64,000 nucleotides of DNA, from assembly GCA_030272585.1 (NCBI GenBank), contig BSYQ01000007.1, forward strand, positions 624,001 to 688,000. Direction: 5' to 3'. The notes beneath the pieces were generated by a model. The model was not told the origin of the DNA. It saw only the letters and a program-made list of their open reading frames with translations, and did no database searches. Of the stretch, positions 2,111 through 63,545 are shown piece after piece (position 1 is the first letter of the stretch; every line of letters begins with the position of its first letter). This DNA is from Bryopsis sp. KO-2023. Taxonomy: Eukaryota; Chlorophyta; Ulvophyceae; Bryopsidales; Bryopsidaceae. The position numbers were made by a program, and so were the translations under genes.

Positions 2111-5100
2111 ATGAGACGCCACTTCAACAACAGACCCATCCCTAATCCAGTCCTTCTGATAATATTCGTTGCTGTCAGCCTCGCACTTTACATCCTTACT
2201 GGTGTTCATTGCTTCTCGGGGTCCCTATCTGCGTCCTGTAACCATGCGCTAGGACGAGTATCTACGAGAATTGACGTTGCGTCCAGCGCCGCCAAAAGCG
2301 AGAATCACGCGGACGGCCAGAAATTCGCTAAGAAATCTCAAACACAGGGATTCGAACGTTCTATCGACACAACCAGTCGAAAGGAGTACTTCATAAGAAT
2401 ACACAATGGGGAATTCGTGGAAGGATGCAAAAGGTTTCGAATATCTGGATGGAATCAATGGGAGGTGAGTAATTTCAGGTGGAGAAATCTGCGTGTTGAA
2501 CATCCACCCAAAATGTCCCACATGCCGGATGATCGATGCAGGCGAAACCACTTGCATGATGACTAATTTTAAAGCAAGGGTGTTCGCATCCAGTCTTCAA
2601 AAACAATCTTAAGAAGAAAAGAGTGAGCTCGTTTTGTTGAGATTCTCAACTTGAAAATGACGATTGTGTATAAAGGACATGCTTACACGATTTCTATTTT
2701 GGGCAAAATCAATTGACAGGTTTTGGAGGCCGCTGCTGGAGCTCCAAACCTGATAGGCTCCAGCTACCCACCTGGAAAAACGGGTCCAAAAGTAAGTGAG
2801 CTACCCTGGCTTTTCTGGTGCAAGTGCGAACAGATTGAAAGTGCTATTTCAAATGCATATCATCCATTCGCTGAATTCCGAAAACACGAACCAACCCGCA
2901 AAAACTAAAACCACAGTAATTTTTAAATAGAGGTGGTGGAAACAACCCCAAATAACAAAAAATCTGTTGATGCTGCCATGGACCTCGAAATTCTGGAACC
3001 CCTCTCCACTATCCACTTCGATCTGATCTGATCTGATCCATTGGGTGTGTGTGCAACCGATCCTAAATACACATGCACTTGTGGTTTTTCTGTTTCCAGA
3101 TGATCAGGGACATGATGGAAGAAGGCAAGGCGAAGGGATTTAATGTGATGCGAATATGGGCTCACTCAGTATCGAAACAGTATGCACTACAAATATCACC
3201 AGGAGTCTACAACGAAGCTGTGAGTTGTTGACCAAAGCGCTTTCTTCCTTTTTGTCTGGAATCCCAAAACACCAAAATGCCAAGTTATCCCCAAAATTGA
3301 AGACAAAGTCAAAACAGAAACCAAAACTACTCATTGCTGTTGCTGTATATTTGAGACCGGGAAAAGCAACACAAGGAGCATATCGCTGGGATTGATGATG
3401 TCTTGGGTGGATAGATGTTCAGGGGATTGGACTACACTCTTGACCTTGCTCGGAAGCTAGGACTTCGTATGATCTTATCATTGACAGATAATTGGTCCGA
3501 GGCTGGCGGAGTGAACGAGTATGTAGAATGGAGCCGATCTGCTTCGAGGTACGGAGGAAACGAATTTCTGTTTTCTCGGGAAGGGGGTACTTTCAATTTG
3601 ACAAAAGTGCCCAACTGGTTGCACAGATCCAAATTCCAGCTTTTCAAGCAAGGCTGTTGTGGATTTCGATATGTTGAAATTCTGGACCATGATCTCCTAG
3701 CTGACACGATTTCATTTCTTTCGCTCCTACTTTCAGACATGAGCTTGAAACATTCCCCCGACAGCAAAAAAATTTCACTATGCATCCGTGTTGAAGTGTT
3801 TTTCTCCTTTGTACATAGACACGGTGACTTTTTCAAGGATCGAGCAGCCAGGAAATACTACCAGACGCATGTCAGAACTGTAATCAATAGAGTCAATACG
3901 ATCAATGGCAGAGCTTATCGGGACGATCCCACGATAATGGCCTGGAACTTGATCAATGAACCTAGATGTGTGGGATGTCCTGAGCACCTACAAAATTGGA
4001 TAGATGAAATGGCATCGTATGTCAAACGGATCGACCCCAATCACCTGCTGACCGTGGGGATGGATGGGTTTTATTCCACGAGTGGAAAAACTTGGAGCAA
4101 TCCACAGGGGGGAGGCCGCTGGTCTGAGAAGGTACAGTTATTTATGTGGTAGTGCTGTTATGCACTGTTGTTTTTTTGTGCTTTTTTTCACAAAGGATGT
4201 GAGGGCCTGGTAGAATAACCAACACCATTTGTGGCTTTATCCTGGCTCAGGAAGGCCAGGATTTCATCCGCAACCACAGGTCCAAGTCCATTGATTTTCT
4301 GACTTTCCACAGCTGGATTGACAATTGGGGCGATCCCACGGAGGCTTTCCAAAGATTATGGATTAGAGAGCATGTGGCGGATGCTTCTGTCATGAAGAGG
4401 CCGGTATTGCTGGAAGAATTTGGAAATCAAGTTCAACAAGGGGGCCCCACCATGGAACACAGAAACAAGTTTTTTGGTGTGGTTTATGATGAAGCAAGGA
4501 GGCAAATGGAAAAGGGACCCCTCCAAGGAGCAATGTTTTGGCAATGGTAGGTGTGGCTATGTTTGTTTCATTATTTTATACATAATTTTTCCCCCTCCCA
4601 GTTTATTTTTTCTCGCAGATTTGTTTCTAGGACGATTTCTTTGTGTATGAATTTTTTGGGGGGCAAAACCCCTCCACTTTTAGGTGTTTCTAACCAAAAG
4701 GGGAAAGTTGGGAAGAGGTTTTAAGTGAAGCTCTAAGACTTGGTCAGGTTCAATCAGTCCAGTGGATTCAATGAACGGATCTACATGTTTGGAGGGTTTT
4801 TTAGGTTTGACGATGGGCAGTCTGCTGTCAAAGATGGGGGAGACGCTCAGAGGTTTGCCATTTTTAAATCAGACGTGGCCTTTCAATCAATCTTATTATT
4901 CACATCTTTCATCAAAGAGTCGAACCAACCCTCGCTGCCAAATTGTGATGATCCCGGGAGGTTTTTTACCCCTGATGCAAACACCACCTCTTGCGAGAGC
5001 ACGTGGGTGAATGGAAAGCCTGGCACTGGATTCGAAGGTCCGTTTTGTGATTTTGACATCAATGAATGTGTGAGGGCCACCGCAGGCTGTGCGGAAAATG

Positions 5101-14572: not shown

Positions 14573-17500
14573 TTAACCAGAGGTAGAACCCTCATCATCT
14601 TCAGACCGTGGATTGAGAAGAGATCCATAGGATTCGGAAGTTTCCAGAGCTTCCGCCAAAGTGACGGTCTTCGAAGGAATGGTCTCCAAGTCCGCAAGCA
14701 AGACAGCATCGACCAAGTGAATGACTGAGTTGCAGGCAAAGATGTCCAGCTTCGTGATATTTGCTGTGGACTCTGGAGCTTCCACCGAGAGGCCAGTTGG
14801 GAAAACAAGTGGGTCCTCCAGGATCTCCAATGTCTCTCGCTTGCCCTGCCATCACCCAACACAAAATTGCTTCAAGGGCCTGATAGACAACTCAGGTGCG
14901 GTAGAAATTTCTTGGCAATATTTTTGTGTGATTCTGAATTAGAGAGAAGGGCGCCAGGCAGTAGTGTGGTTACCTTCTTAGTCAAAGCTGTTTTCATTTT
15001 GAGGCCATCCTTCAGCAAACGAGCTGGGAGGGGCTTTCCCACGATGTGGTTGCTGACAAGGTTCTCTGCAAGGACCAAATCTGGCACGAGGTCAAAGAAT
15101 CCCTTTCCTCGGGGCAAAATGTTTCCAAAGGCAAAATCCATCGGAGCGAAAACGGTGACCTTCAAGCTCTTGTTGGTGAACACCCTGGCGAGCTTGGCTT
15201 GCCTCACGATGGATGAGAACACCTTGATTTCTGGGATCTGGCCCAGAACCTCAAAGAGACTCTGGGTTCCCACCTGGCAACCGCCAGAGCCCGCCGGTGC
15301 CTTCGTGGATGCAGGGGGGCTGTCGGAGGAGGAGGCAACAGCCTTGGACGGGGCAGAGATTCCTGCTACAAAAATCACAGAACAAAACATCCTAAACAAA
15401 AGCCAAATGATTGATTTTCTTTAAGATGGGGAACACCTTCTCAATACATATCTGCAGCGCACTGCAAAACGTTTGCCCACCAACCTGATTCCTGATACAA
15501 GAACAACACCTGACACAAGGCCATCCACAGCAAAAACTCTAGAAAAACCAAGCGAACAAGAATCTAAAATATCCTTGATAAAAGAGATAACGTGAATTGT
15601 CTCACTCTGCTGGCTTTTCGAAATATGGAAGGGATGTGACAATATAGTAGCGCATACCTCGGACACCCGTGCCAGATGAAGCCGCTCTGAAAGGCAGGAG
15701 GACATTGTTCACTTTATGGACCGCAGCGGTACATGATTTATCGATATCAGTTTCAGTAACCTTGGCACTGGACCCCACTCCGAACAGCTCGGCAACAGTG
15801 CCTTTAGCGTTTGTCTCCATCACAATGTCAGTTCCATTTCGCGACTTCAACTCGGTGGATTTTTCTTTCAGCAGATCTTTGCCAGTGAGAATGCTGTCGA
15901 TGATGTGATACTCCAGAATGCCGACAGTGTTGGGATCCTTCAGCATGTCATCGACAGTGGTCTCCAGGGTTTCGGCAGCCTTTTGGAAGGCATTGTTGGT
16001 GGGAGCAAAGAGAGTGTACTCCATAGATCCATCAGCCAAGTCGGCGGACAAAGCAAATGTGTTCAACAACCTACACCAAGCCACAGCAACCATTTAAGAA
16101 TCTCAATTCAGTACTGCACTCACCATGCTCATTGGGTTTAAATTAGAATGTTGATTAGCTTGATATTGGGGGCATTAACCTGGAGGATCAGGATGAAAGA
16201 TATCGCCACCCCTCATCACAAATCATGGGTTTCGACTTTTGAGGGACCAGTCCATATTCCACACAATGAAACAAAACCCTACACTTCAGCATTACAAACT
16301 ACTCACTCTGTCAAGATAGAGAGGTCTTCATCCTCGGAAACGGCGAAAAATCCATCGAAGCCTTCTTCACAAACGGCTTCCTTCTCATCTTCATCCTCAG
16401 GAGCAGGTGCAATGTCCACAGGGGCAATACCTGCCAGGTCTGAAGCTGGCAGCAAGACCGCATCCACCACGTACACAAGAGAGTTACAGATGGGAATAGG
16501 ATCTCCGATGATCTTGGCAGTGGAGCCAAGGCCCTCGACTTCCCGAACGCTGCCACCGATCAAAGGATCTCCCCCAACAGTTTCGATCTGCCTGGGTTGC
16601 TTCAGTTTGGCTGGCTCCAAAAGACCTTCAACCACGTGATACTTGGCAATGGTCTCGCCCTTGGGGCTACTGAGGAGGTCATCAACAGAGATGCCAAGGG
16701 CACCAACCCCATCTTCCACAGCCTGCAGGCCACCCAGATTTCAAACTTAATTTCCCTTCTAACTAAGAGAGCCTGATTTTCCAAGATTAGTTGGTGAAAT
16801 GCTCTCACTGTGTGTTCTTCAAATCACGGTCTCTTGCTTGGGCTGATTCAGTTTTACACTAGACTCCTCCAGAATCCAATGAAGCTTTTGGTTGAAGCTT
16901 TAAGTGAAGAATACCTTCTGTACCAGGTGGCTCCAGGCACTTACCTCGTTTGTTGGTGCAAAGACTGTGTAGGAATCCTTCTCAGATCCAAGATCAGTGT
17001 CCAGCCCAGCAGCTGCAAGGAGAGTAGCAAAAGCTCCAGTTGATTCTCCAGTGTTGAGTGCCTCGTACAAAGAGACTCCGCATGTTGCATTAGGATCAGC
17101 GAACTCCTGAAGAGGTTTTTCGTCTCCAGTAGGCTCATCATCCTGCGCACATTAAACCTATTTTCTCACCATTTCTGAAAATAGCAGAGAAACAACAAGA
17201 ATAAGAAAATGTTCAAAGGGAGAGCGCCAACCTCTTCAGCAGTGTCTTCTTCGACAGCTGCCTCATCTTCTTCGACAACAGCTTCTTCCTCCACTGCATC
17301 TTCTTCTTCAATAACAGCTTCGTCCTCCACTGCTTCTTCTTCTTCGACAACAGCCGCTTCTTCCTCAACAAGGGCAGGATCTTCCTCAGCAACAGTATCT
17401 TCATCCCCGACAACCCCGACAACAACAGCTGGGTCCCCCTCCTCGACAGCTGCTTCTTCATCCCCAACAACAACAGCGGGATCCTCCTCAACAACTGCTT

Positions 17501-18920
17501 CTTCATCCCCAACAACAACAGCAGGGTCCTCAACTGCTTCTTCATCCCCAACAACAACAGCAGGGTCTTCCTCATCAACTGCTTCTTCATCCCCAACGAC
17601 GACAGCAGGGTCCTCCTCATCAACAGCTTCTTCCTCAAGAGCAGCAGGATCTTCCTCAACAACAGCCTCCTCCTCTTCCACAGCCTCAGGATCTTCTTCC
17701 TCTTCGACTACGGTTTCCTCATCCTCAGCTGCAGCAAGGTCGGGAAGAATCACTCCAACTGCTGCGTCATCTTCCACTTCGTCATCAGCCAAGGCTGCCT
17801 CCTCTTCGTCAGCCTCCTCGTCCTCAGCGATTTCCTCACCAGCATCCTCAACAACTTCTTCATCATCATCACCAAGAGTCACAATTGGGCCTTCCTCATC
17901 TGCCTCTGCATCTTCCTCATCAGCCTCGGCATCAACATCAGCCTCAGCATCTACCTCAGCTTCAGCATCTTCTTCGTCAGCTTCGGCATCAACCTCAGCC
18001 TCAGCCTCAGCATCAACCTCAGCTTCAGCATCTTCTTCCTCAGCTTCGGCATCAACCTCAGCCTCAGCATCTTCCTCAGGATCAGCCTCAGCCTCTTCTT
18101 CAGCATCTTCTTCGTCAGCTTCGGCATCAACCTCGGCCTCTTCATCAGCCTCAGCATCAACCTCGGCCTCTTCGTCAGCTTCAGCATCAGCATCGTCTAC
18201 ACTCCAATCATATGACAAGTTACTTCACAGAATTCCAGCAAGAACTCGATGGCAAAAATTCTACGAATTTAAACTCTCGTTGCTGTTGCAGGGGAGCAGG
18301 ATACCTTCAGAGACCTCCTCGGGCTCCTCAGGAGCAGCATCATCAGATTCATCATCACAGGTGCAAGCTCCACATGTGTACTCACAGAGGTTGCTAGAGA
18401 TCATCCAATCCTCTGAACACTTCCCAAAATCACTCTGCACAGAGACAACCCCAATTCAATCCATCACTATCAGCCACCACGCGCAATACGAGACGAACAA
18501 GATGAGTGTAAAAAACACTCGAATACTCAATCACGTACCTGCTGTTCGCAAGTGAATTCGTCATCAGGGGGATTGTCTGTGCAATCGCATCCCGCCGGCA
18601 CCTGAGCGACCGCAGCGCCTGAACAGCGATAGATCAAACACCACCGCCACTATCAGATCCAAAATTCCTAGGCAAGAGCGCCACTAAAGGATCGGTTGTT
18701 AACCCCAGAAACAGATCCATGATTCTACAAGATATTTCCGCAACTAGCCGCCCCAAAATTCCACAGATCTCCAACAGAAGCGCCCAACAGGGCGCACGCA
18801 CGGGCTGCGAACGCCAATTGATCGATCTGGGAGGGTTTTTTCTGCGTTTCAAATCGCAGGGGTCTCACCTATACACAGCGCGAGCAGCACGCCCAGCAGG
18901 AGCGAACAAGTCCGGCCCAT
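14573..18920 (-). CDS. Secreted ShKT-acidic-triple fasciclin (FAS1) protein
   Basis: Nine exons (18869-18920, 18539-18618, 18305-18434, 17232-18196, 16945-17142, 16307-16722, 15658-16070, 14974-15365, 14573-14845) join in full phase to 972 residues. Residues 1-22 are a signal peptide (LLLGVLLALCIG, AVA). Residues 28-68 form a six-cysteine ShKT-like module (CDCTDNPPD, FTCEQQ, FGKCSEDW, LCEYTCGAC). A single 965-base exon then encodes about 320 residues made almost only of Glu, Asp, Ala and Val, first as EADEEAEVDA-type repeats, then as DEEAV-EEDPAVVVG repeats. Three FAS1 domains follow (about 420-610, 614-750, 765-960). Each carries the H1/H2 hallmarks YTVFAPTNE, YTLFAPTNNAF or VTVFAPMDFAF, and a VVDAVLLP-like end. 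FAS1 proteins act in cell adhesion and matrix. The acidic part could bind calcium or cationic polymers; that is inference. No GPI or membrane anchor is seen at the C-terminus. Confidence 0.9.
17400..17640 (-). repeat. Tandem coding repeats in the acidic region
   Basis: About five diverged units of roughly 40-50 bases each encode DEEAV(V/D)EEDPAVVVG. They lie within the 965-base exon of the fasciclin gene and look like recent tandem duplications. Confidence 0.8.
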
Positions 18921-20219: not shown

Positions 20220-21044
20220 TCACACATCCACCATTGTTGCTTTCAGAGGTACTTGTGCTTCGCCTGCGATATCTGGCTGCTGTTGAGTGGCTCGATGTAC
20301 AATTGCAGCAAAAGTGACCATCAAAAGAACCCCTCCGGAAAACAGCCAAATGTAGTCTGCACCAAAACGCTTCTTCTTTCATGTTAATTAACATTGTCCT
20401 ATAAGACATATAATTCTGGATTCGTGGTTCACAAGATCGGTAAAAATCTTACAGCCCAGGGAAAATATGAGAACACAATTTGGGGATCTTACCAGGGTTG
20501 TCGGCTGATCGAATACAAAATGCACCAGTCCCATGGACAGCAATCAGTTGATGCTTTTTCTTGCAAGAAAGACATCCATCCACTGCTGAGCAAATGTCGC
20601 AGCCCATGGGGCACTCTGTCGCCATCACATCCCAAACAGTTGATATTTTTGCGATAAGTTTTAAAAGATACAGAAGATTAACTAAACAACAGAACAAGGT
20701 TGATGCAGGAGTACCGTGACAGAGGCCTTGGTCAAGGTACCAGCCGTCGGGACATTCCACACAAGGCTCAGATTTCTGAGTCAAGGCACAATCCAAGGGC
20801 TTGGAGGCAGAAACTGTAGCAAAACACCTGAGTTACGTTCTTTGCAACCTTCATCGATTCGCCATTGAGGCGCCGCCACCCTGTTGTTGAGTGACTTCCT
20901 CTTGGAGGATGCAATCAATTTTGTGAGCTCCACTGAATGTACAGGGTTCGGAATGGCATGCCCACCTATTGTGTTAACGAGCAGGGACGTCGCCACAAAG
21001 CATGTGCAGATCGTTCTAAGATAACGCCCTCCCCTGTGAGCCAT
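20220..21044 (-). CDS. Small cysteine-rich type I membrane protein (furin-like repeat)
   Basis: Exons 20966-21044, 20715-20813, 20493-20615 and 20220-20356 join with phase-1 introns throughout to 145 residues. Residues 1-27 are a signal peptide (TICTCFVATSLLVNTI). The ectodomain has about ten cysteines in a furin-like or growth-factor-receptor pattern: CVECPDGWYLDQGLCH, then CPMGCDICSAVDGCLSCKKK. The last exon gives one membrane span (IWLFSGGVLLMVTFAAIV) and a cytoplasmic tail of about 30 residues ending KATMVDV. Each exon is one module, and all introns are phase 1, the pattern that allows module shuffling. A receptor, co-receptor or matrix-contact role is possible but not shown. Signal-peptide exon design resembles that of the neighbouring fasciclin gene (ATAG/GT donor, phase 1). 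Confidence 0.8.
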
Positions 21045-22121
21045 AGCTGCTATTGCGAGCTCGAAGGCTGAGGAAATCGTAACACGGTTCCTGGCACCGA
21101 TACAGTGAGTTTCTTAGATCTAGTGTGTGGCTTGGTTCACTTTTTTGTATGTGAGCACACACGTCTTTTCCATGATAGTCTACACCAGTTTGCTGCCTGA
21201 AGATTCGGTCTTAATCATGCGATGGGATGTTCAAGGCTTCTAACAGCCAGGGGACGGGGGGCAGTTGAACCTGATCCAAAGTTGCATTTTTGTCCAAAAA
21301 AGTCTCAAGGCACCCCCACTCTTTCACCCGATATGTTCACCCAGTTTTACGGGTGACTTTCTTGTTGTTCAATTGATAATCTCCCTGAGATATGCCACCT
21401 CTCCTATTTCAAGGAGTGGATAAAATAAAAAACCCTACAACCTCTGTTGTTGTACATAGATCTTCAGTCAAAATGCTTCTTCATGAACCACTACACACAA
21501 CATTTCACAAGGAATCCCACTGTCCCAAACCAACCCCACAACAAGACATCCCAGGCGAAGCTCTTGTTTGCCATCCATACATTAAACAGGACCTTAAAAG
21601 TGTTCAGGTTCTCATACATTCGCAAAATACAGACCTTATTGTTCGACACAAAATTTTCTTCGCAATGCTCTACTGCAATTCTCTGCTCTGCAATAGGGAT
21701 CCAAGCAAAAAAAATCCGCATAAAATGCACTCCAAAAAAAGGAAATAAATACAAAAAACCCCAGCACGCATGGAGTCGTCATGGCCCTCCTACCCCTTGA
21801 TATACATATATAATTTGAACCAATTATACACATATATGTACAATATTTCTTTTCCTTGATGGGCTTTCAGCCCCATACATATTTCATAGACTCTGTCTCT
21901 CTCTTCCTGAAAAGTAACCACAGGTCAAAACACAAAATAACTAACTAGGTCAAAATCTTGAACAAAAACGGGAAATCCTCGTCCATTTCTTCTTCTCACT
22001 CTTTTTTCTTCTCTTTTACCCCCCCCCCCCCAAACAAACAAAAACACCACAAAAAGGAGACGCATTTTCCTCCACAACAAGCTCAGAGCGTCCAGCAAGT
22101 GGAACACTAGACTCTGTTCAG
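21045..22121. other. Intergenic, no gene seen
   Basis: This is A/T-rich sequence between the start of the furin-like gene and the end of the stress-protein gene, both leftward. It includes an ATATAT tract near 21800 and a run of about eleven C at 22020-22030. No coding is supported. Confidence 0.6.
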
Positions 22122-30564: not shown

Positions 30565-32325
30565 TCAAACCGTTTCCTTGGACTCCGTTGGCTCACCACC
30601 CACCCCAAGGTTTTTGAATTCCTGAGAAAGCGGCACAACGTTGTTGCGCTCCTCTTCTTTGTCATTTCTTGCCTCCACCACTTGGACCTCCAATTTCACA
30701 CTCTCGCCTTTGGTCTCTATGGCTACCTCCACAACTTCTTCTTTACTCAGTTTCCCCTCCCTGGCATTTGAGCTCGACCCTGCGCTTTTCCCCACCATCC
30801 CACCATTCTCCACTGTCAAATCCGGCTGCTCACTTGAGCCCTCCCCATTCTTCCCCTGAACTTCTGGCATCGATGGCTCAAACTCTGTTTTACACGACTT
30901 TGATGGAGGTGTGGACCTTCGGGCTAGCTCATCAGTGACAGTTGAAGTCCACCTCCGAACATCCCCTCCCTGGAAATTTGCCAGTTTTTCCGTGAGGATA
31001 TTGGCCAAGTGAACCATCACGTCGTCCCGTGGGCACTCCAGTTTCCAGGATGGCAAAATGACCATATTCCTTTCTTCCCCCTTGGCAGCCTTGTAGGCAT
31101 CATCGTCGAAAAGAATGACTTTCGATAGATCCGAAAACAGCGGACCAAGCGGCTTCATGGTGTCCCATCTCTTTCCACCTACCCTAGCTGAAACAAGATG
31201 ACTTTTTTTTCATTGGAAGAATTCGGCATAACTCCGCAGGTGTGAATGCCAAAGCAGCAAAATTTTCACAGATTGATGTCAACTCTAAATTTGCCAAAGT
31301 AAACATCTGGGAACAAAACAAACGAAACATTGAATATTGAAGCATGTAGTGCTCTTCCACCAGGTCTGAACCATCAAAAAGCACTCTCTCAACAAAATGG
31401 TATGGTAGGATAAAATTTCGGAGCAGCACGCTCAATCATTTAGTCGCATAGTGGACGGCCTATATGACCAGTCTTGCTGTGATACATGTTTCCTTAATTT
31501 AAGGAAAGCAATTGAACATCAGCGTAATGAAAACTGATTTCAACATATTTAAAGGAGAGGCAGATTGATCATTGGCCTGTTGCTGAATCATACCCACCTT
31601 TCGGACGAGTGTGGTCTCGACAGAGAATCAAATCGGGATCAAACAGCCCATCCTTGTCGAGTTCATTGGAAATCCCGCTCTCCACAGAATGGCGCATTCT
31701 CTGTGAATTATGCCCTGCGGCTGATGTGAATATGCCGATTCGGAAATGCGTCTGTTGTTAACAGAACATTGAGAAGAGCCTCGGACTGCTGACTGATTGA
31801 AAACATGTGTGTCGGTGCACCCAGATTTGAGTGTGAGCCCATGAAATGGAATTTCAATTCTCATGGGGTTTGATTTTTGCTGTCATGTCAGCTGGATGCC
31901 TTTCTTGCACAGTGAATCCAGGTTGATTATTTTGCTTTTGGGAGGAGGGAGTCTAGTTGGCTGCCATTATGGCCATTTCCTAATCTCAGGGAAAACGCTG
32001 TGTGCAAGATTTTCATGTGTGAAGTCACCTTCAGTCTCCACAGGTGATGCAACCCTGGCCTCAACTTGATGGACCTTTTTTTCTTCCCCCCTCTGCACAC
32101 CAGCGTCCCATTCAAGTCGAACAGCAAAATCACTCGATCATCTTGCGCTTTTTTCCTGCCCCTGGGTGGGACATATCTCTCGCCCGCCATGGTCCCAACA
32201 AATCGCTTGATCTCCGCCAACGAAGAAAAACATGGGTTGCCAAAATCCAGCTCATCGATAGGACCCCACCTTCCGACCGCGCCCCGGCCATTTCCGTCGA
32301 CGTCGGGCAGTAGTCCGATAGTCAT
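30565..32325 (-). CDS. FCP1/NIF-like HAD-family phosphatase homolog
   Basis: Exons 32029-32325, 31598-31751 and 30565-31178 join in phase to 354 residues. The HAD motif I is VILLFDLNGTLV, where the usual DxD is DLN: the second aspartate (general acid) is asparagine. This DLNG form is known in a plant branch of the NLI-interacting-factor family, so it may be natural and not decay. Motif II is FRIGIFTSAA, and motif III/IV is the region SDLSKVILFDDDAYKAA. The last 110 residues are a charged, low-complexity tail rich in Glu, Lys and Ser. Family members dephosphorylate serine in proteins such as the RNA polymerase II tail; the lost acid makes activity doubtful. The start is uncertain: the frame is open upstream, and in-frame ATGs lie near 32520, at 32325 and at 32190. 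Confidence 0.75.
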
Positions 32326-46089: not shown

Positions 46090-47052
46090 TCAGCAACTCC
46101 TTACAGTTTCATCACAGGCATTCGAAAATGACTGTTCCAGTTCGGCCACAGCCGAACTCGAGGCGTCAGGCCCGAGATTTCTACACCTATCCAGCATCTC
46201 CCGCCTTTCAATGTTCAACTCTCTCCCAACCCGCCTCAACGCGCTGCTTTGAACGCCCTTTTTCGCCAACGCCTGCATTGCGTTCGACAGCAGTTTTCTT
46301 GAGCTTTCGTCGACAGCGTGCAACAAGCTGTTTGCGTTCGCAAGACGCCCCTCTCTTTCCAGAGCTTCCTTTTCTTCAGCAGTGGTTCCCACGGGAGGAG
46401 GTGATCCCCAAAGATCAAAGATGTTGTTCCAGATCTGATCCAGCTGCTTGGGATCTGCCGTGTTCGTCACTGAAGTGTCAATAGTGATCGTTGACTCCTC
46501 CCAAGTGTGTTTCTCTGGTGCGGGCTCGTTGAATGAGCCAGCCATCCTCACTAAGACGTCTTCTTTCACGACGGCGCCGCTAGCTCTTTTCAAGTTTCTT
46601 GATCTGCAGAGTTCCAGGGGGCACTTGAAATAGATCTGCAAATACGAGCAGCGGCAGTCGCGTGCCAGTCGGAACCACTCGTGTCTCATGCTGGTCAGCT
46701 GCATATTATCGTCAATGAGAAGCAACCGCCATCGAGCGTTGTCCGCTTTGCTTTCTTTCAACAGCCTGGTCGCTGTCGCCTTGCATCCTGCTCTACTGGC
46801 GTGCCACGCGTCGAGGTCAAAGGACTCTGACGAGCGCTTCAGGTCGTCATACTGTGCATCGAAGGATACCGCGACCACTTGGACACGTTCAGAAGACGTT
46901 TGCAAATATTGTGTAAGGTTGGCGGCGAAGGTCGATTTCCCAGAAGCTGGCAACCCACAAAGGACCACGACGGCTGACTCCGCCTTTCCGTCTTCGACCT
47001 CATCCATGCACTCGCGCAGTGACGAACTCTTTTCAAGCCCACACAAAAACAT
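46090..47052 (-). CDS. PSTK: L-seryl-tRNA(Sec) kinase (PSTK-like), intronless
   Basis: One uninterrupted frame of 320 residues. The P-loop is VVVLCGLPASGKSTF (about residue 30-44), followed by VVAVSFDAQYDD, LLLIDDNMQLTSMRHEWFRLAR, and the LID-like region IYFKCPLELCRSRNLKR. This set, including the IDDN(x)YY-like strand and the C-x-x-RN motif, is the PSTK pattern: it phosphorylates serine on tRNA(Sec), the step before SepSecS makes selenocysteyl-tRNA. The related Elongator factor KTI12 shares the P-loop, but the sequence around RNLKR fits PSTK better. The start at 47052 is the first ATG; the frame stays open upstream without another ATG. The lack of introns stands out among its neighbours. It starts 78 bases from the divergent DUF393 gene. 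Confidence 0.8.
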   Translation of the reverse strand: MFLCGLEKSSSLRECMDEVEDGKAESAVVVLCGLPASGKSTFAANLTQYLQTSSERVQVVAVSFDAQYDDLKRSSESFDLDAWHASRAGCKATATRLLKESKADNARWRLLLIDDNMQLTSMRHEWFRLARDCRCSYLQIYFKCPLELCRSRNLKRASGAVVKEDVLVRMAGSFNEPAPEKHTWEESTITIDTSVTNTADPKQLDQIWNNIFDLWGSPPPVGTTAEEKEALEREGRLANANSLLHAVDESSRKLLSNAMQALAKKGVQSSALRRVGRELNIERREMLDRCRNLGPDASSSAVAELEQSFSNACDETVRSC

Positions 47053-47130
47053 GACGTCATTATAACGTTTGTACCATTGTTTGTCCTTTTTGGCCGAAGG
47101 CCCCCTCTGTCTTTCAGAAAAGCGCGAAAA
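47053..47130. promoter_or_regulatory. Very short bidirectional promoter region (PSTK / DUF393)
   Basis: The first ATGs of the two divergent genes are 78 bases apart. Either the untranslated leaders overlap, or the rightward gene uses its next in-frame ATG (47176). Confidence 0.5.
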
Positions 47131-48674
47131 TATATGCAACGCTCGTTCAAATCTCTTGCTCCGGCACTTCGAGGAATGACTTTAGCTAGGACCACGACAA
47201 TGAACGTGTCTTCGTGTTTGGGACGTGGAGGAGTCGTCAGGAGCTCGCTCCAGGTGGCATTCCTCAAAGACCCCTAAACCGTGCTTTGACAGTCGTCGTC
47301 CCAAAAAAGACTTTCAACCCCCCGACTTATCTTTGGAATTTCTATTGTCGAACTCAGTATTTGGAGGTTGGGCGTGGGCCCTCTCCTCGGCTTCTCGCCG
47401 CTCGTGACACCCACCTCTCTACGGGCGGTGTTAGGAGCGGATTCAGGTCCCCAAGAAACGTGGCTTTATTTTTCAAGAACACTTCTATTGCGGATCCGCC
47501 AGCAAGTGATGCTATCCCAGGTGCAAAAGTTGAACCTTGACGACGCGCCGAGTTCGTGAAAGGAACAAACAGTTTGACGTGACTGTGCTCTTTCTGGTTG
47601 AAAACGTAACAAAAACTTTTACAAAACCTGTTATCGACACTAAACTTCTGAAGTAGTCAATGAGTACTTTATTAATGGTGGTCAGCTAAGTACTGGAGAG
47701 GATCACAGTGATCATATTAGGCTGCAGCCGGGAAATCATGCACAACATTGGTCGAGTGTCCCAGCTGTCGAGAGGGATGTAGTCTTTTTTGCATTGGGGT
47801 ATTCCATTCCACAGCGATGTTGCTGTGTGCCTTTGAAAATAAAGTCTCGGAATTTCCCTTGTCAGACTTATCGAGTTCCTGGTTTGCCCGATGTGCTGAG
47901 GAGTGTGCGTTAATCCAGCAGAAACCAGCCCAGTTGGGGCTGAGCCAGGCACATGGATGATCCGTTTGCTATTTGATGGGGACTGTCCACTGTGCATGAG
48001 GGAGGTGGATATGTTGAAAAATAGAGATGCCGGAGTGGGGAATATTGATTTTGTCGACATTTCTTCGCCGGACTACCGAGCTGAAGACAATGCTGGCGTA
48101 ACGTATGAGGAGGTCAGACCACCACACTCGTTGAAACTTCGATTGTGGTTCCCATTGAGAAATCGGGGTTTTTTTTGCCTCACAAGCAAAAAACCATTTC
48201 CTCACCGCATGTTTGCCTAACTTGGGCGTTCAGCGGTTTATGTTGTTTGTTCTGGAAAAGTGGGGTTGTTTCTCCAATGATGGAAGGATGCGCTCCTCTG
48301 GCATACATGATGTAGGAACTCATTCACACACTTCTTTTTACCATTTTTGTTGAATTTTGTAGGCAATGGGCCACATCCATGGCATTCTGCCAGATGGCTC
48401 CGTGGTAACCAACATTGAGGTTTTCCGCCGATGCTATGAGGCTGTTGGCCTTGGATGGGTCTATGCTGTCACAAAATATGAACCCATCAGAAAGGCTGCA
48501 GATGCCGTGTATGGTGTGTGGGCGAATTACAGGCTTCCACTGACGGGGCGACCTGATCTCTCCATGGTCCTCGAGAAAAGGCGAGACCAAATTGACGAAG
48601 TAGGCTGTGGTGGGGACGATGCCGAAACCTGTGAGTTGCCCTGGGTTACGGAGGAAGCCAACAACAAAAATTAA
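47131..48674 (+). CDS. DUF393/DCC thiol-disulfide oxidoreductase-like protein, plastid-type
   Basis: Exons 47131-47253, 47358-47520, 47934-48112 and 48363-48674 join in phase to 258 residues. The first about 80 residues are Arg/Ser-rich with no acidic run (SLAPALRG, LGRGGVVRSSLQ), a likely plastid or mitochondrial transit peptide. The DCC domain is clear: IRLLFDGDCPLCMREVDML with the CPLC redox-type motif, IDFVDISSPDY, then HIHGILPDGSVVTNIEVFRRCYEAVGLGW. Plant plastid members follow the same order. Family function is poorly known; a thioredoxin-like fold and a membrane-linked redox role are proposed for it. The tail is acidic and short. Starts at 47131 and 47176 are both possible. Confidence 0.85.
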
Positions 48675-49953: not shown

Positions 49954-51111
49954 TTAAGCCCATTTCCTGGGGTTCCGGCATGCATCCAACAAATCAGCCT
50001 CTGGGGTGCCCTCCTCCGGTTGATGGTTGTATTCCCAGCGGGCGGTTAAAGGAAGAGACATCAAAATGCTCTCTATTCTTCCCCCAGTTTTCAACCCAAA
50101 GGTGGTTCCTCTATCATAAACCAAGTTGAACTCCACATAGCGTCCTCTTCGTATTTGTTGCCACTCCTTGTTGCGGGTTTCGTAAGGATCGTCCTTGTGT
50201 TTAGCCACGATTGGGATGTAGGAGTCCACCACGCTATTCATACAATCCGTCGAAAAGCCCAGGATCTTATCCGCGTCCCTGTCGTTCAGGTCGTCGAAGA
50301 AAATCCCTCCGAGACCCCGCCTCTCCCCACGGTGCTTGATTAAGAAATAATCGTCGCACCACTGCCTGTACTTATCGTAAAATTCGGGGTCGTGCTTGTC
50401 GCACACGTTTTTGTAAGTTCCGTGGAAATGGCGCATGTCCTCTTCGTCCACGTACGAAGGCGTGATATCCGTTCCACCCCCGAACCACCACTGTGGCGGG
50501 ATGTCGCCCCAGGCGTCCGTCTCGAAATACCGATAATTAAAGTGCATCGTTGGGGCGAAGGGGTTGACAGGGTGCATCACTGAACTGATGCCAGCGGCGA
50601 AAAAGGGGACTCGTTCAGTGGCGCCTTCAGCGGCTCCGTTTCCCCCTTTCCCCGTCGCAGCTCGATACGCTTCGGGGGGCATCGAGCCGTACACAACGGA
50701 CACGTTCACCCCGGCCTTTTCCCAAACATTTCCGTTGGACAACACCCGGCTGATCCCGCCACCTCCACCAGGTCGAGTCCAAGCGTCCTCCCTGAACGAG
50801 CTTCCGTCCAGTTCGGACACCGCGGAACATATAGCATCCTGCGCACTTCTGATCTTTTCCTCGAAACGCGCTCGCATGGTGTCGGGTCCGTCGACGTCTT
50901 TCCTGAGCAGTGTTTCGGGAGTGACATCCACGATGGTTTCTTTCTCGATCGCGGAACTCGCTCGTACGGCGGACATCCTGCGGTTCACTCGTCCCGCTCC
51001 GAGACGTCCGTTCCTTCGAGATTTGGGAACGGAGGTAGACGTGCGGCGGCCTGACGGTGAGGAAAGCCCAGGGTAGATCGGCAAGCACTGTCGGCCGATA
51101 GTTCCCGCCAT
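49954..51111 (-). CDS. CPX1: Oxygen-dependent coproporphyrinogen III oxidase, plastid, intronless
   Basis: One frame of 385 residues. The first about 55 residues ([15 protein letters not shown]...[15 protein letters not shown]) form a plastid transit peptide. The mature part is full length and shows the family signatures: [98 protein letters not shown] and [15 protein letters not shown]. It converts coproporphyrinogen III to protoporphyrinogen IX with oxygen, a step towards haem and chlorophyll. The start is the ATG at 51111, after which the transit-peptide composition begins; upstream in-frame sequence is open but unlike the family. No intron interrupts it, in contrast to most genes in this window. 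Confidence 0.96.
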
Positions 51112-51770
51112 CGTGCCGCAAGAGAAACAGGGGGTCGAACAAAGCGGGGGGAAACGGATATAAACGGCCTGTTCTGCGAAGGGTTTTTTTGCCAGCAAAT
51201 CAAGTCCTTGGATTCGTCGTACGATCCCAAAAAGTATCGCGGAATCAACACGTGGGGTGGGTGATGCGCGCGCGCGCTGCGCACAACTTCCCCCCAGGAA
51301 TCCTTTCATGCACCATATAATTGTGTTTCTTCCACCACACAAGGCGGTGTTGGCCTACTCCCAGCCACCGTTTTTTACGACTCTATCGTTTTGGAAGAAG
51401 TCGTGGCAGCGCGCGCGCTATCGTCGAGGAGCAATAGCTTTGGATTTTAGTTTTTTTTAATAGAGGAGCGTTCTTGGCGCGTGCTGGAATATGCCACCAG
51501 GTTTTTCTCCCCAATCAATGGCTCAGCCCTCGATCAAAAGGGGCTTCCTGTCGGCGGTAACGGTGCAATCTTCGCAGGTACCAGCGAATGTCCCCCAATC
51601 TTTCGAACCAACTTTATTGGATGTTCCTGGCTGTTTGGGGAGGCTTAGACGTTGCATAAGACGTCGACCGTCAGTTACCTTTCCTACAATAATTAATTTG
51701 ATTTTGTCTTCTTGTTGGCGCTGTTTAGGCAGACAGGAGGCATCAAAACTCCTCCTCCCTCGTTTTTGAT
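51112..51770. promoter_or_regulatory. Divergent upstream region of CPOX and DUF506 genes
   Basis: This region holds the two leaders. The part 51112-51480 is G/C-rich, with CGCGCGCG runs. An acceptor-like site at 51732 (GGCAG/AC) suggests a 5' untranslated exon of the rightward gene. A possible TATA-like TTTATATC lies on the minus strand near 51150. Confidence 0.4.
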
Positions 51771-61461: not shown

Positions 61462-63153
61462 TCAGAAAGTAGGTGAGTCAACACAAACCTCCATCGCAGC
61501 AGAAGCCTCATTGTCTTGCCCATTTTCACCTTTAGTAGGAGTTTCTTGGGCGATAGGCTCCGCTGGAGAGCTTCTAATCCATCCGCTTCCCAGTATCAAA
61601 TCATAGACCTTGAGGGCTCTGGTTGGTTCCAACCTGAAGAAGGTCTTGACATCATGGCGAGGGAAATAGCCCAATTTGTCGGCCTCTCTCAGCAACCTAT
61701 CTTTGAGCGCAAGGTAGTGAGCTGGAACAAACCGCGATGCAACGCAGAGTTCCCGTTCTTTCGCTGAGAGGATTTCCCAGCCAGGCAGCAACGTGATGTC
61801 AAGTTTGACCCCCCTTTTGACCCTCCAGTCGGCAAGCACACTCCCAGGTTTGTTCTGGCCTGCTTTGTTTTGACCACTGGCACCCTTAGCTCTAGGCACA
61901 CAGTATCGAGACCTGATCGCTCTTCGAGTTTTCGTGTCTCGCTCCGCAGCTTCAGCGTCCGAAAAAGTTCTGTGCCCTTTCCTTCTCATTTCCTTCAAGA
62001 TTTCAATGTGCTCCCTGAGCTTTTTCTCCACATACAGCCCCTCCACCAAGGCCTCATGCTCCTCCTGGGGCAGAAACCTGGCGAAAACCCTCATTTTGGC
62101 ATGAAGCTCGTTCAGCTCATCAGGCCTCCTCTTTTCCAGCACCTGCTGCTTCTTGACGTTCAGCAGCTTCCTCTCCCTGACGAACTCGCGCCTCACGTCA
62201 CGTTCGTCCAGACGCTCGTTGTAAATTCCCAACAACCTCAGCTTCTTTTCTTTGATTTCCTCTGGGTCTGCTGGGTTGAACTCGATGTCCGCTATGCACG
62301 ATTCCGCGTCGTTATCGTACTCGGGGTCAAACTCGTCCCGTTTGGCATTGTACCCCGTAACTTCGTACGTGTTTCCTCCGGGGACATCCTCCTGGTCGTC
62401 GCCCACCTTCTCACCGGCCTTCTGAGCGGCCCTTCGACCTTTCCCAACCTCCTCGACAGCATTCCGCTTGTCGCTTTCCCCCTCGACATCGCCCTGGCAC
62501 TGACCGTCGTGCTCCAAGCGCCTCCCCTTTTTCACCCCACTACCCGACGGCACAGGGGTCCCACTCTGGTCAGACACCTCGCCCGAAACCTGAGTCATCT
62601 TTTTCCCAGATTTCATCGTCTCCGCGCTGGAATCCAGTCTGTAGCGCTTGGGAGGCGGGGTTTCCGCGTGCATCCCCGCGGCGGTGTGCGCCGGGGTGTT
62701 GGTGGGAGTCGGAGCCGGACCTACCCCCGATTTCAGGTAGATTTGGTAGTAGTGGCGCTCGCACTCCTCCTTTCCCTTCGTCCCTACGTGCTCCGCCACG
62801 GACGACCAATTTCCCAGGCCATACATGTCCACCCCCTCCAACAGCAGCAGTTCCTCGTCCGCACCCCAGTTGGGCGCAAACAGCGGGAAACTCAAGTCAT
62901 CCACGACCCGGTACCCATGCGTGTTCTGATGGGGATGCACCTCCACCCCGACGGAGAAACATTCGAGGCACAGGTCGAAGTCGGTGCACACCGCGCACTT
63001 GATCCGAACCAGCCCCGAGATGTCCTTGTTGCAGTAGTTGCAGTGGTATTTCGCCCCCCGCACTGCCGCCGTGGTCCCCGCCTCACGTCCGCAACGGGAA
63101 CGCTTGCGCTTGCCTCTGTTCGATGCGGCGCCATTCTTTCCCACCTTGGACAT
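61462..63153 (-). CDS. ADA2: Transcriptional adaptor ADA2 (SAGA/HAT module), intronless
   Basis: One frame of 563 residues. Order: a basic start (GKRKRSRCGREAG), a ZZ zinc finger (YHCNYCNKDISGLVRIKCAVCTDFDLCLECF, six cysteines, then HPHQNTHGYRVVD), a SANT/Myb domain (WGADEELLLLEGVDMYGLGNW, ECERHYYQIYL), a charged linker, the ADA2 core (YNAKRDEFDPEYDNDAE, LRLLGIYNERLDERDVRREFV, MRVFARFLPQEEHEALVEG) and a C-terminal SWIRM domain (LCVASRFVPAHYLALKDRLL, VKTFFRLEPTRALKVYDLI). It bridges GCN5 and the SAGA complex to control histone acetylation in the nucleus. The ATG at 63153 is the first in frame after open but unrelated sequence. Length is usual for plant ADA2. No intron is present. Confidence 0.96.
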   Translation of the reverse strand: MSKVGKNGAASNRGKRKRSRCGREAGTTAAVRGAKYHCNYCNKDISGLVRIKCAVCTDFDLCLECFSVGVEVHPHQNTHGYRVVDDLSFPLFAPNWGADEELLLLEGVDMYGLGNWSSVAEHVGTKGKEECERHYYQIYLKSGVGPAPTPTNTPAHTAAGMHAETPPPKRYRLDSSAETMKSGKKMTQVSGEVSDQSGTPVPSGSGVKKGRRLEHDGQCQGDVEGESDKRNAVEEVGKGRRAAQKAGEKVGDDQEDVPGGNTYEVTGYNAKRDEFDPEYDNDAESCIADIEFNPADPEEIKEKKLRLLGIYNERLDERDVRREFVRERKLLNVKKQQVLEKRRPDELNELHAKMRVFARFLPQEEHEALVEGLYVEKKLREHIEILKEMRRKGHRTFSDAEAAERDTKTRRAIRSRYCVPRAKGASGQNKAGQNKPGSVLADWRVKRGVKLDITLLPGWEILSAKERELCVASRFVPAHYLALKDRLLREADKLGYFPRHDVKTFFRLEPTRALKVYDLILGSGWIRSSPAEPIAQETPTKGENGQDNEASAAMEVCVDSPTF

Positions 63154-63545
63154 CCCGACACGTTTTGGCCGCCAAAAAATCACTCTTCTCCTGGTCCTTT
63201 TCTTGGCTGAGATCCCGACTGCGAAAACTCCGAAAGCTGTTCCGCCCTTCTGTTATCAAGCGAGTTCACTTGGACCGTTCTTGGCGGTTAATATCTCTCC
63301 AACCTAACCACCGGTACCCTCAGAACCCACTCACTCCCTCGCTGAGTTCTAGTTTCGCCCTTAAACCAACGATGAGCAAAATGAACCGATTCCGCTCTCC
63401 GAAACTTCTTCTGTTCCGGATGCCCCTCCATGACAATTTCCTTCTGTCCTCCACCCCAAAATCACCTCTCCCAGAACAACCCTCAAGAATCTCTCTCTCC
63501 TCCCACCAGTAGAAAGGCACACATGTGAATTGCTGCCAAGGGTTT
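63154..63545. promoter_or_regulatory. Upstream region of ADA2
   Basis: This is the likely promoter and leader of ADA2, lying before the 3' end of the next leftward gene. No coding is supported. Confidence 0.4.

Follow-up and report, generated by a model that had tools for sequence, protein, structure and literature searches.

How does one algal gene come to join a small cysteine-rich module to three FAS1 domains through a long acidic stalk, and what would the resulting protein do? The locus in question lies in a window of 64,000 nucleotides from Bryopsis sp. KO-2023 (contig BSYQ01000007.1; C7:624001-688000), within an assembly of 91.1 Mb in 28 contigs. The gene is on the minus strand at 18920-14573 of the window, and its nine exons give a spliced length of 2916 bp, that is, 971 amino acids plus a stop, in the order signal-like N-terminus, six-cysteine ShKT-like module, acidic linker and three FAS1 domains. 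A preliminary description had reported nine exons agreeing in phase, with no strand named; indeed, all eight introns are GT-AG and their phases are 1, 0, 1, 0, 0, 2, 1 and 0. At sequence level the gene is real, and the fusion of ShKT, acidic and FAS1 parts is confirmed. Judged by its relatives in the same genome, it is an extreme member of a ShKT-stalk-FAS1 family with conserved ends and variable stalk chemistry, and we regard this set of paralogues, alike at their ends but with different stalks, as the most useful result.

Searching the genome gave 43 FAS1 exon matches in 25 clusters, and the cysteine module gave 51 matches, listed up to E 10, in 33 clusters; these counts are lower bounds. 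Of the 25 FAS1 clusters, 10 have a cysteine module at most 5 kb away on their own strand, against 0.05 expected under random placement, with three of the ten pairs (C10:3606k, C9:4887k and C11:4426k) depending on module matches of E 0.01-0.08. The preliminary description knew of no standard architecture of this kind, a view that finds no support within the genome; what stands is that the composition and length of the stalk are special. Six of these pairs, among them that of the window gene, have the module upstream of FAS1, and the five other loci with this order are B (C7:842.5-845.3k), C (L054), D (L055), E (L060) and F (L061), of which D may contain two genes whose linkers are short in one and poly-proline in the other.

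Paralogue B, 200 kb off, has all four domains of the window protein with their order unchanged, at identities of 56% (ShKT), 35% (FAS1-1), 45% (FAS1-2) and 49% (FAS1-3), and each domain pairs best with its counterpart. By eye, the two genes have in common a phase-1 intron in the signal segment, a phase-0 intron inside ShKT, whose counterpart in B lies at C7:842.7-842.9k, a phase-1 intron where ShKT meets the linker and a phase-2 intron after FAS1-1, and B is without the two introns that the window gene has before and inside FAS1-1. The phase-0 intron inside FAS1-1, after exon 5 of the window gene, recurs in C, in which there is no intron between the second module and the linker (both by eye). 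Since the paralogue has the ShKT and triple FAS1 order together with several common intron positions, it is very likely that the ShKT exons, the acidic exon and the FAS1 exons are one gene. Because B is collinear, its domains are pairwise best and introns are common to both genes, the ends have been kept within the family while the stalk changed. A search for relatives in viral contigs gave six stretches that matched the pattern of FAS1 domain 2, none of which was confirmed.

The stalks themselves differ strongly. That of the window protein is acidic, with 361 residues and a net charge of -183, whereas B has 72 residues (net -1). For C to F the stalks were cut by eye from the exons and the values are approximate: about 209 residues in C (net -12; Lys/Glu-rich, then poly-proline), 119 in D (net -22; poly-proline/alanine, then Glu-rich), 70 in E (net -3) and 201 in F (net -23; mixed charge). 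About 75 kb from the window gene, a further locus, G (L056, around C7:563-565k, minus strand), encodes a FAS1 protein akin to FAS1 domain 3 of the window protein and carries an acidic tail of 75 Asp/Glu/Ala residues (net -37). When the collected loci were scanned for open frames in which Asp/Glu make up 36% or more of 50 residues, 12 stretches emerged, of which two are the window's own and some are antisense; the others include Glu/Pro/Gln repeats at the FAS1 locus L016 and, in L021, an acidic stretch that follows poly-proline. At L004 (C6:5085-5088k), an open frame with a VDEDVDED repeat lies antisense behind a FAS1 exon, and the sense strand there is probably Ser/Thr-rich.

In the window protein the linker, which runs between the module's final cysteine and FAS1-1, consists of 51% Asp/Glu, 20% Ala, 14% Val, 4% Pro and 2% Ser/Thr. 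Its only basic residue is a Lys close to the FAS1 end, and a run of 368 residues starting at residue 50 is free of Lys, Arg and His. Most of the linker, 322 of 361 residues, is encoded by exon 4 (17232..18196, minus; residues 88-409), which lacks the Lys. The acidic exon of 965 bp that had been described beforehand is thus confirmed, and so are the tandem repeats in it. Its residues are Glu (112), Ala (68), Asp (55), Val (51), Pro (11), Gly (11), Leu (6), Ile (4) and Thr (4), with a computed charge at pH 7 of -167. The arrays that Tandem Repeats Finder reported in exon 4 include a 45-bp unit of the EEDPAVVVGDEEAV type in 5.0 copies (17414..17633), an Asp/Glu/Ala-rich 63-bp unit in 3.9 copies (17938..18189) and a 36-bp unit in 2.7 copies (17258-17354), all on the minus strand. 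The core of the 45-bp unit, DPAVVVGDEE, had four matches in the genome as an exact degenerate pattern, all of them within the window gene. Tracts of (D/E)A are not enriched genome-wide: the pattern matched 33 times forward and 15 times in reverse, against 43 and 15 for the backwards control, and 36 of the 48 listed matches are GARGCG simple repeats. An ice-binding repeat was considered for the Val-rich units and rejected, the Pfam match to LbR_Ice_bind (E 0.0029, 18.1 bits against a cut-off of 30) being taken as compositional. An exon-shuffled cassette was also discarded: exon 4 is flanked by phases 1 and 0 and has 965 bases, so that skipping it breaks the frame.

The repeats allow the reading frame to be tested. 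Compared at 60 bases and 78% identity, all 18 repeat pairs of exon 4 stand a whole number of codons apart, and their mismatches fall 12, 68 and 139 times on positions 1, 2 and 3 of the minus-frame codons; under two other settings every pair was again in register (31 of 31 and 23 of 23), with the same order of mismatches. In its evolution the acidic exon behaves as coding DNA of the minus frame, and because of this test and the collinear paralogue, an origin of the gene by chance or artefact is rejected. Seventeen repeat pairs contain 155 codon differences, of which 44 are synonymous, 44 exchange Asp and Glu, 38 exchange an acid and a non-acid and 29 are among non-acids. The charge class is thus kept in 117 of 155 cases, which would be weak evidence for selection, because third-position changes in GAN codons yield Asp/Glu exchanges.

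Exon 1 (18869..18920, minus) contains the start codon and most of the signal-peptide-like N-terminus (MGRTCSLLLGVLLALCIG...), exon 2 (18539..18618, minus) the rest of the signal-like segment and the ShKT-like module's first half (CDCTDNPPDDEFTCEQQ), and exon 3 (18305..18434, minus) the module's second half (GKC..WM..C..TCGAC) together with the beginning of the acidic linker. With a signal peptide read by eye, the protein is probably secreted. The six-cysteine module spans residues 30-68, with extra flanking cysteines at 28 and 70. On the module of the window protein itself, the domain search with Pfam ShK (PF01549) gave no match at E<=1, so the ShKT assignment of the preliminary description lacks a direct Pfam match; by related modules and profiles, "ShKT-like" stands. 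From the genome, nine family modules were picked by hand, the window's included, and PF01549 matches six of them (best 2.8e-5). In a profile comparison with three Pfam ShK domains of the genome, E was 2.6e-5 with a probability of 75% over 27 columns. Against the Protein Data Bank (PDB), the nine-module profile found six chains at E<=10, the top one being 7l2g, a ShTK domain protein (1.4e-4). The other five, 6ckd, 2mcr, 6dri, 2md0 and 6buc, whose listed names include OspTx2a, a metalloproteinase, Acan1, AcK1 and OspTx2b, have E values of 0.007-0.048, and we take them to be ShKT folds as well. A relationship to ShKT at superfamily level is therefore well supported by the profiles. Like ShKT proteins, the module has six cysteines and a C-x-D start, and like the three aligned Pfam ShK matches of the genome it has a spacing of 8-10-3-2 counted from the second cysteine. 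Unlike them, it has 10 residues between cysteines 1 and 2, which is a longer loop, carries the extra pair of flanking cysteines and is not matched by Pfam on its own.

The three FAS1 domains claimed for the C-terminal part are clear: Pfam Fasciclin (PF02469) matches in three stretches with E 2.1e-48 and a score of 164 bits, the cut-off being 22. Exon 5 (16945..17142, minus) encodes the end of the linker and the first part of domain 1, ending in ...VFAPTNE, exon 6 (16307..16722, minus) the remainder of domain 1 and the beginning of domain 2, and exon 7 (15658..16070, minus) the bulk of domain 2. Exon 8 (14974..15362, minus) begins with a Ser/Pro/Ala linker and contains the first part of domain 3; another acceptor 3 bp upstream would keep the frame just as well. 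Exon 9 (14573..14845, minus) encodes the end of domain 3, an acidic tail and the stop. The C-terminus (...LNPRSEDDEGSTSG) is hydrophilic and, by eye, without a GPI-like hydrophobic end. Read by eye with the familiar letters of motifs H1 and H2 and of the YH dyad, domain 1 has VFAPTNE, YHVV and CNSLVYVVDAVLLP, domain 2 has LFAPTNNAF, YHII and CTAAVHKVNNVLLP, and domain 3 has VFAPMDFAF, NHIV and CNSVIHLVDAVLL, NH taking the place of YH. H1, H2 and the YH dyad between them are named in sections of PMC10147662. Among PDB entries the FAS1 region is closest to TGFBI (2.7e-15), followed by LRC6 (2.3e-10), periostin (1.8e-9) and the AstaP entries 8c18 (1.6e-8) and 9wm8 (1.8e-4).

What could such a protein be good for? 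The best explanation, to which we give about even credence, is a secreted adhesin of the matrix whose polyanionic tether would be hydrated and bind cations; its secretion, adhesion and cation binding, as well as the disorder of the tether, are what we infer. The cell-coat protein would consist of a signal peptide, a disulfide module of the ShKT type, a disordered, polyanionic tether some 360 residues long and three FAS1 domains. Binding would be done by the FAS1 tandem and the ShKT module, and the acidic stalk would separate the two as a hydrated, extended chain. An extended chain measures about 0.36 nm per residue. The fully extended stalk might thus span about 130 nm, and with roughly one negative charge per two residues its composition suggests a highly swollen state. 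Its dense carboxylates may bind divalent cations such as calcium, and basic partners, be they basic proteins or polyamines, so that the matrix would stiffen or loosen with calcium and ionic strength. The earlier proposal of a stalk that organises calcium, cationic polysaccharide or mineral is plausible; nothing found points to a mineral role, for which one literature query was the only dedicated search. More tentatively, it is conceivable that the family keeps its ShKT and FAS1 ends and exchanges the chemistry of the tether (polyanion, polyampholyte, poly-proline), and that the choice of stalk sets the charge and swelling of the coat, the window gene being a genetically coded, pectin-like polyanion.

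The main competitor of the tether is a neutral spacer: the stalk would just be long, soluble and unstructured, and its acidity a by-product of replication slippage in GNN tracts, so that any hydrophilic filler would serve as well. We consider this possible, if short of probable. The stalks of the relatives vary widely in length and charge, tandem arrays make up the acidic exon, and GNN codons account for 296 of its 321 codons, compared with 272 of the 650 codons outside it. Three facts weigh against the adhesin with a functional polyanion. The GNN excess means that the composition may partly reflect triplet expansion at the DNA level and not selection on charge; the nearest paralogue has a neutral stalk a fifth as long, so that strong charge may be dispensable for the core role of the family; and the Pfam ShK model misses the window's own module. 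Within the GNN codons, however, A at position 2, which gives Asp or Glu, is commoner in exon 4 than in the other exons (166 of 296 against 107 of 272) and Gly is rarer (11 of 296 against 52 of 272), and this depletion speaks for some selection. Slippage into a neutral spacer also sits badly with the complete lack of basic residues over 368 positions and with the second nearby FAS1 protein, G, that has an acidic tail of its own.

The acidity could instead make a water-soluble carrier out of a carotenoid-binding FAS1 protein of the AstaP type, since AstaP proteins are green-algal FAS1 proteins and are among the PDB matches. The match to TGFBI is far better, and we hold a pigment carrier to be very unlikely, even though tested pigment-contact residues of AstaP could be changed with binding kept (sections of PMC10147662) and sequence alone therefore cannot settle the point. 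It is hardly credible that the ShKT and FAS1 exons belong to separate messages with the acidic exon as a fortuitous bridge: the splice sites are in phase at both ends of exon 4, paralogue B is collinear and the same order recurs at four more loci. Across the repeat, the plus strand has an open frame of 456 codons and would there encode a Ser/Thr/Ala-rich protein, a reading whose chances we see as close to negligible, for 139 of the 219 mismatches fall on minus-frame position 3, position 1, which is the third position of the in-register plus frame, is the rarest (12 of 219), and the adjoining exons are on the minus strand.

Some observations lie apart from this argument. A second sub-family seems to nest the ShKT module in FAS1, at L044:1450-1905 (C4:3504k) and L027:1495-2016 (C11:4425k). 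In L027, positions 28-102 of the FAS1 profile precede the nested module (E 6.2e-8), and in L044, positions 98-123 follow it, a weak match (E 0.011, 16.4 bits, cut-off 22); similar FAS1-then-module matches lie on C1 at 2943k, 4014k and 4017k. Upstream of FAS1 with the nested module, L027:11-370 has a lamin tail domain (LTD), an odd partner for FAS1, with E 9.4e-8 and 32.8 bits, slightly below the cut-off of 34.3. Adjoining the FAS1 gene of the window, 20449-21113 (minus) contains open frames of an apparent small cysteine-rich protein (CVECPDGWYLDQGLC..., CPMGCDICSAVDGC...). Five of ten long open frames elsewhere in the window had Pfam matches: glycosyl hydrolase family 5 (3415-4149, plus; weak, 2.5e-5), NLI-interacting-factor-like phosphatase (30568-31209, minus; 8.6e-6), KTI12 (46093-47181, minus), coproporphyrinogen III oxidase (49957-51354, minus) and an ADA2-like protein (61465-63252, minus). 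An Rfam scan of the window gave no match. The rubisco small subunit had ten exon matches on C10, C3 and C8, which are megabase contigs; by eye, two C10 copies (L058, L059) are precursors with a short transit-peptide-like start. One copy, read through with its intron included, matched best 1gk8 (5.8e-47) and then 1ir1 (1.1e-36), presumably the rubiscos of Chlamydomonas and spinach.

How does the window protein compare with known FAS1 proteins? Green-algal matrix proteins are mostly regarded as hydroxyproline-rich glycoproteins, and paralogues with the same ends and different stalks, if true, would allow a direct test of tether charge, length or glycosylation in a FAS1 adhesin. Among the papers listed by a literature search, none joins ShKT or ShK with fasciclin or FAS1, which is weak evidence of novelty, most subscription journals being outside its coverage, and it gave nothing for ShKT with Chlamydomonas and extracellular. 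The string "ShK" does not occur in the main text of the FAS1 review PMC6032426. Sections of that review describe binding of matrix partners by FAS1 tandems as established for the family, and as partner regions they name Cys-rich CROPT domains, EGF repeats and a disordered tail, the animal matrix proteins having an N-terminal Cys-rich domain and periostin a disordered tail as well.

Periostin and TGFBI have four FAS1 domains, whereas the window protein has three. Like them, it combines an N-terminal Cys-rich domain with tandem FAS1; unlike it, they have CROPT instead of ShKT as the Cys-rich domain, and the disordered region of periostin is C-terminal with a basic end, whereas that of the window protein is a central acidic stalk (for the animal proteins, sections of PMC6032426). 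With AstaP the window protein shares the FAS1 domain and the green-algal origin, and AstaP is the weaker PDB match than TGFBI; a ShKT module and an acidic stalk are not mentioned for AstaP in sections of PMC10147662. The protein resembles Volvox Algal-CAM, for which sections of PMC6032426 give a PAST-rich region, and the fasciclin-like arabinogalactan proteins of plants in being a green-lineage FAS1 protein with a low-complexity region outside FAS1. However, those regions are rich in Pro, Ala, Ser and Thr, whereas the stalk is made of Glu, Asp, Ala and Val, and the ShKT-like module is an addition. With so little Pro and Ser/Thr the stalk has no arabinogalactan glycomotif region, and the GPI-anchor signal of many fasciclin-like arabinogalactan proteins is, by eye, absent from the C-terminus; by composition, the window protein is not one of them. 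It is of a known kind, a FAS1 protein that probably belongs to the matrix, and what is new in it is the unusual head and the extreme stalk.

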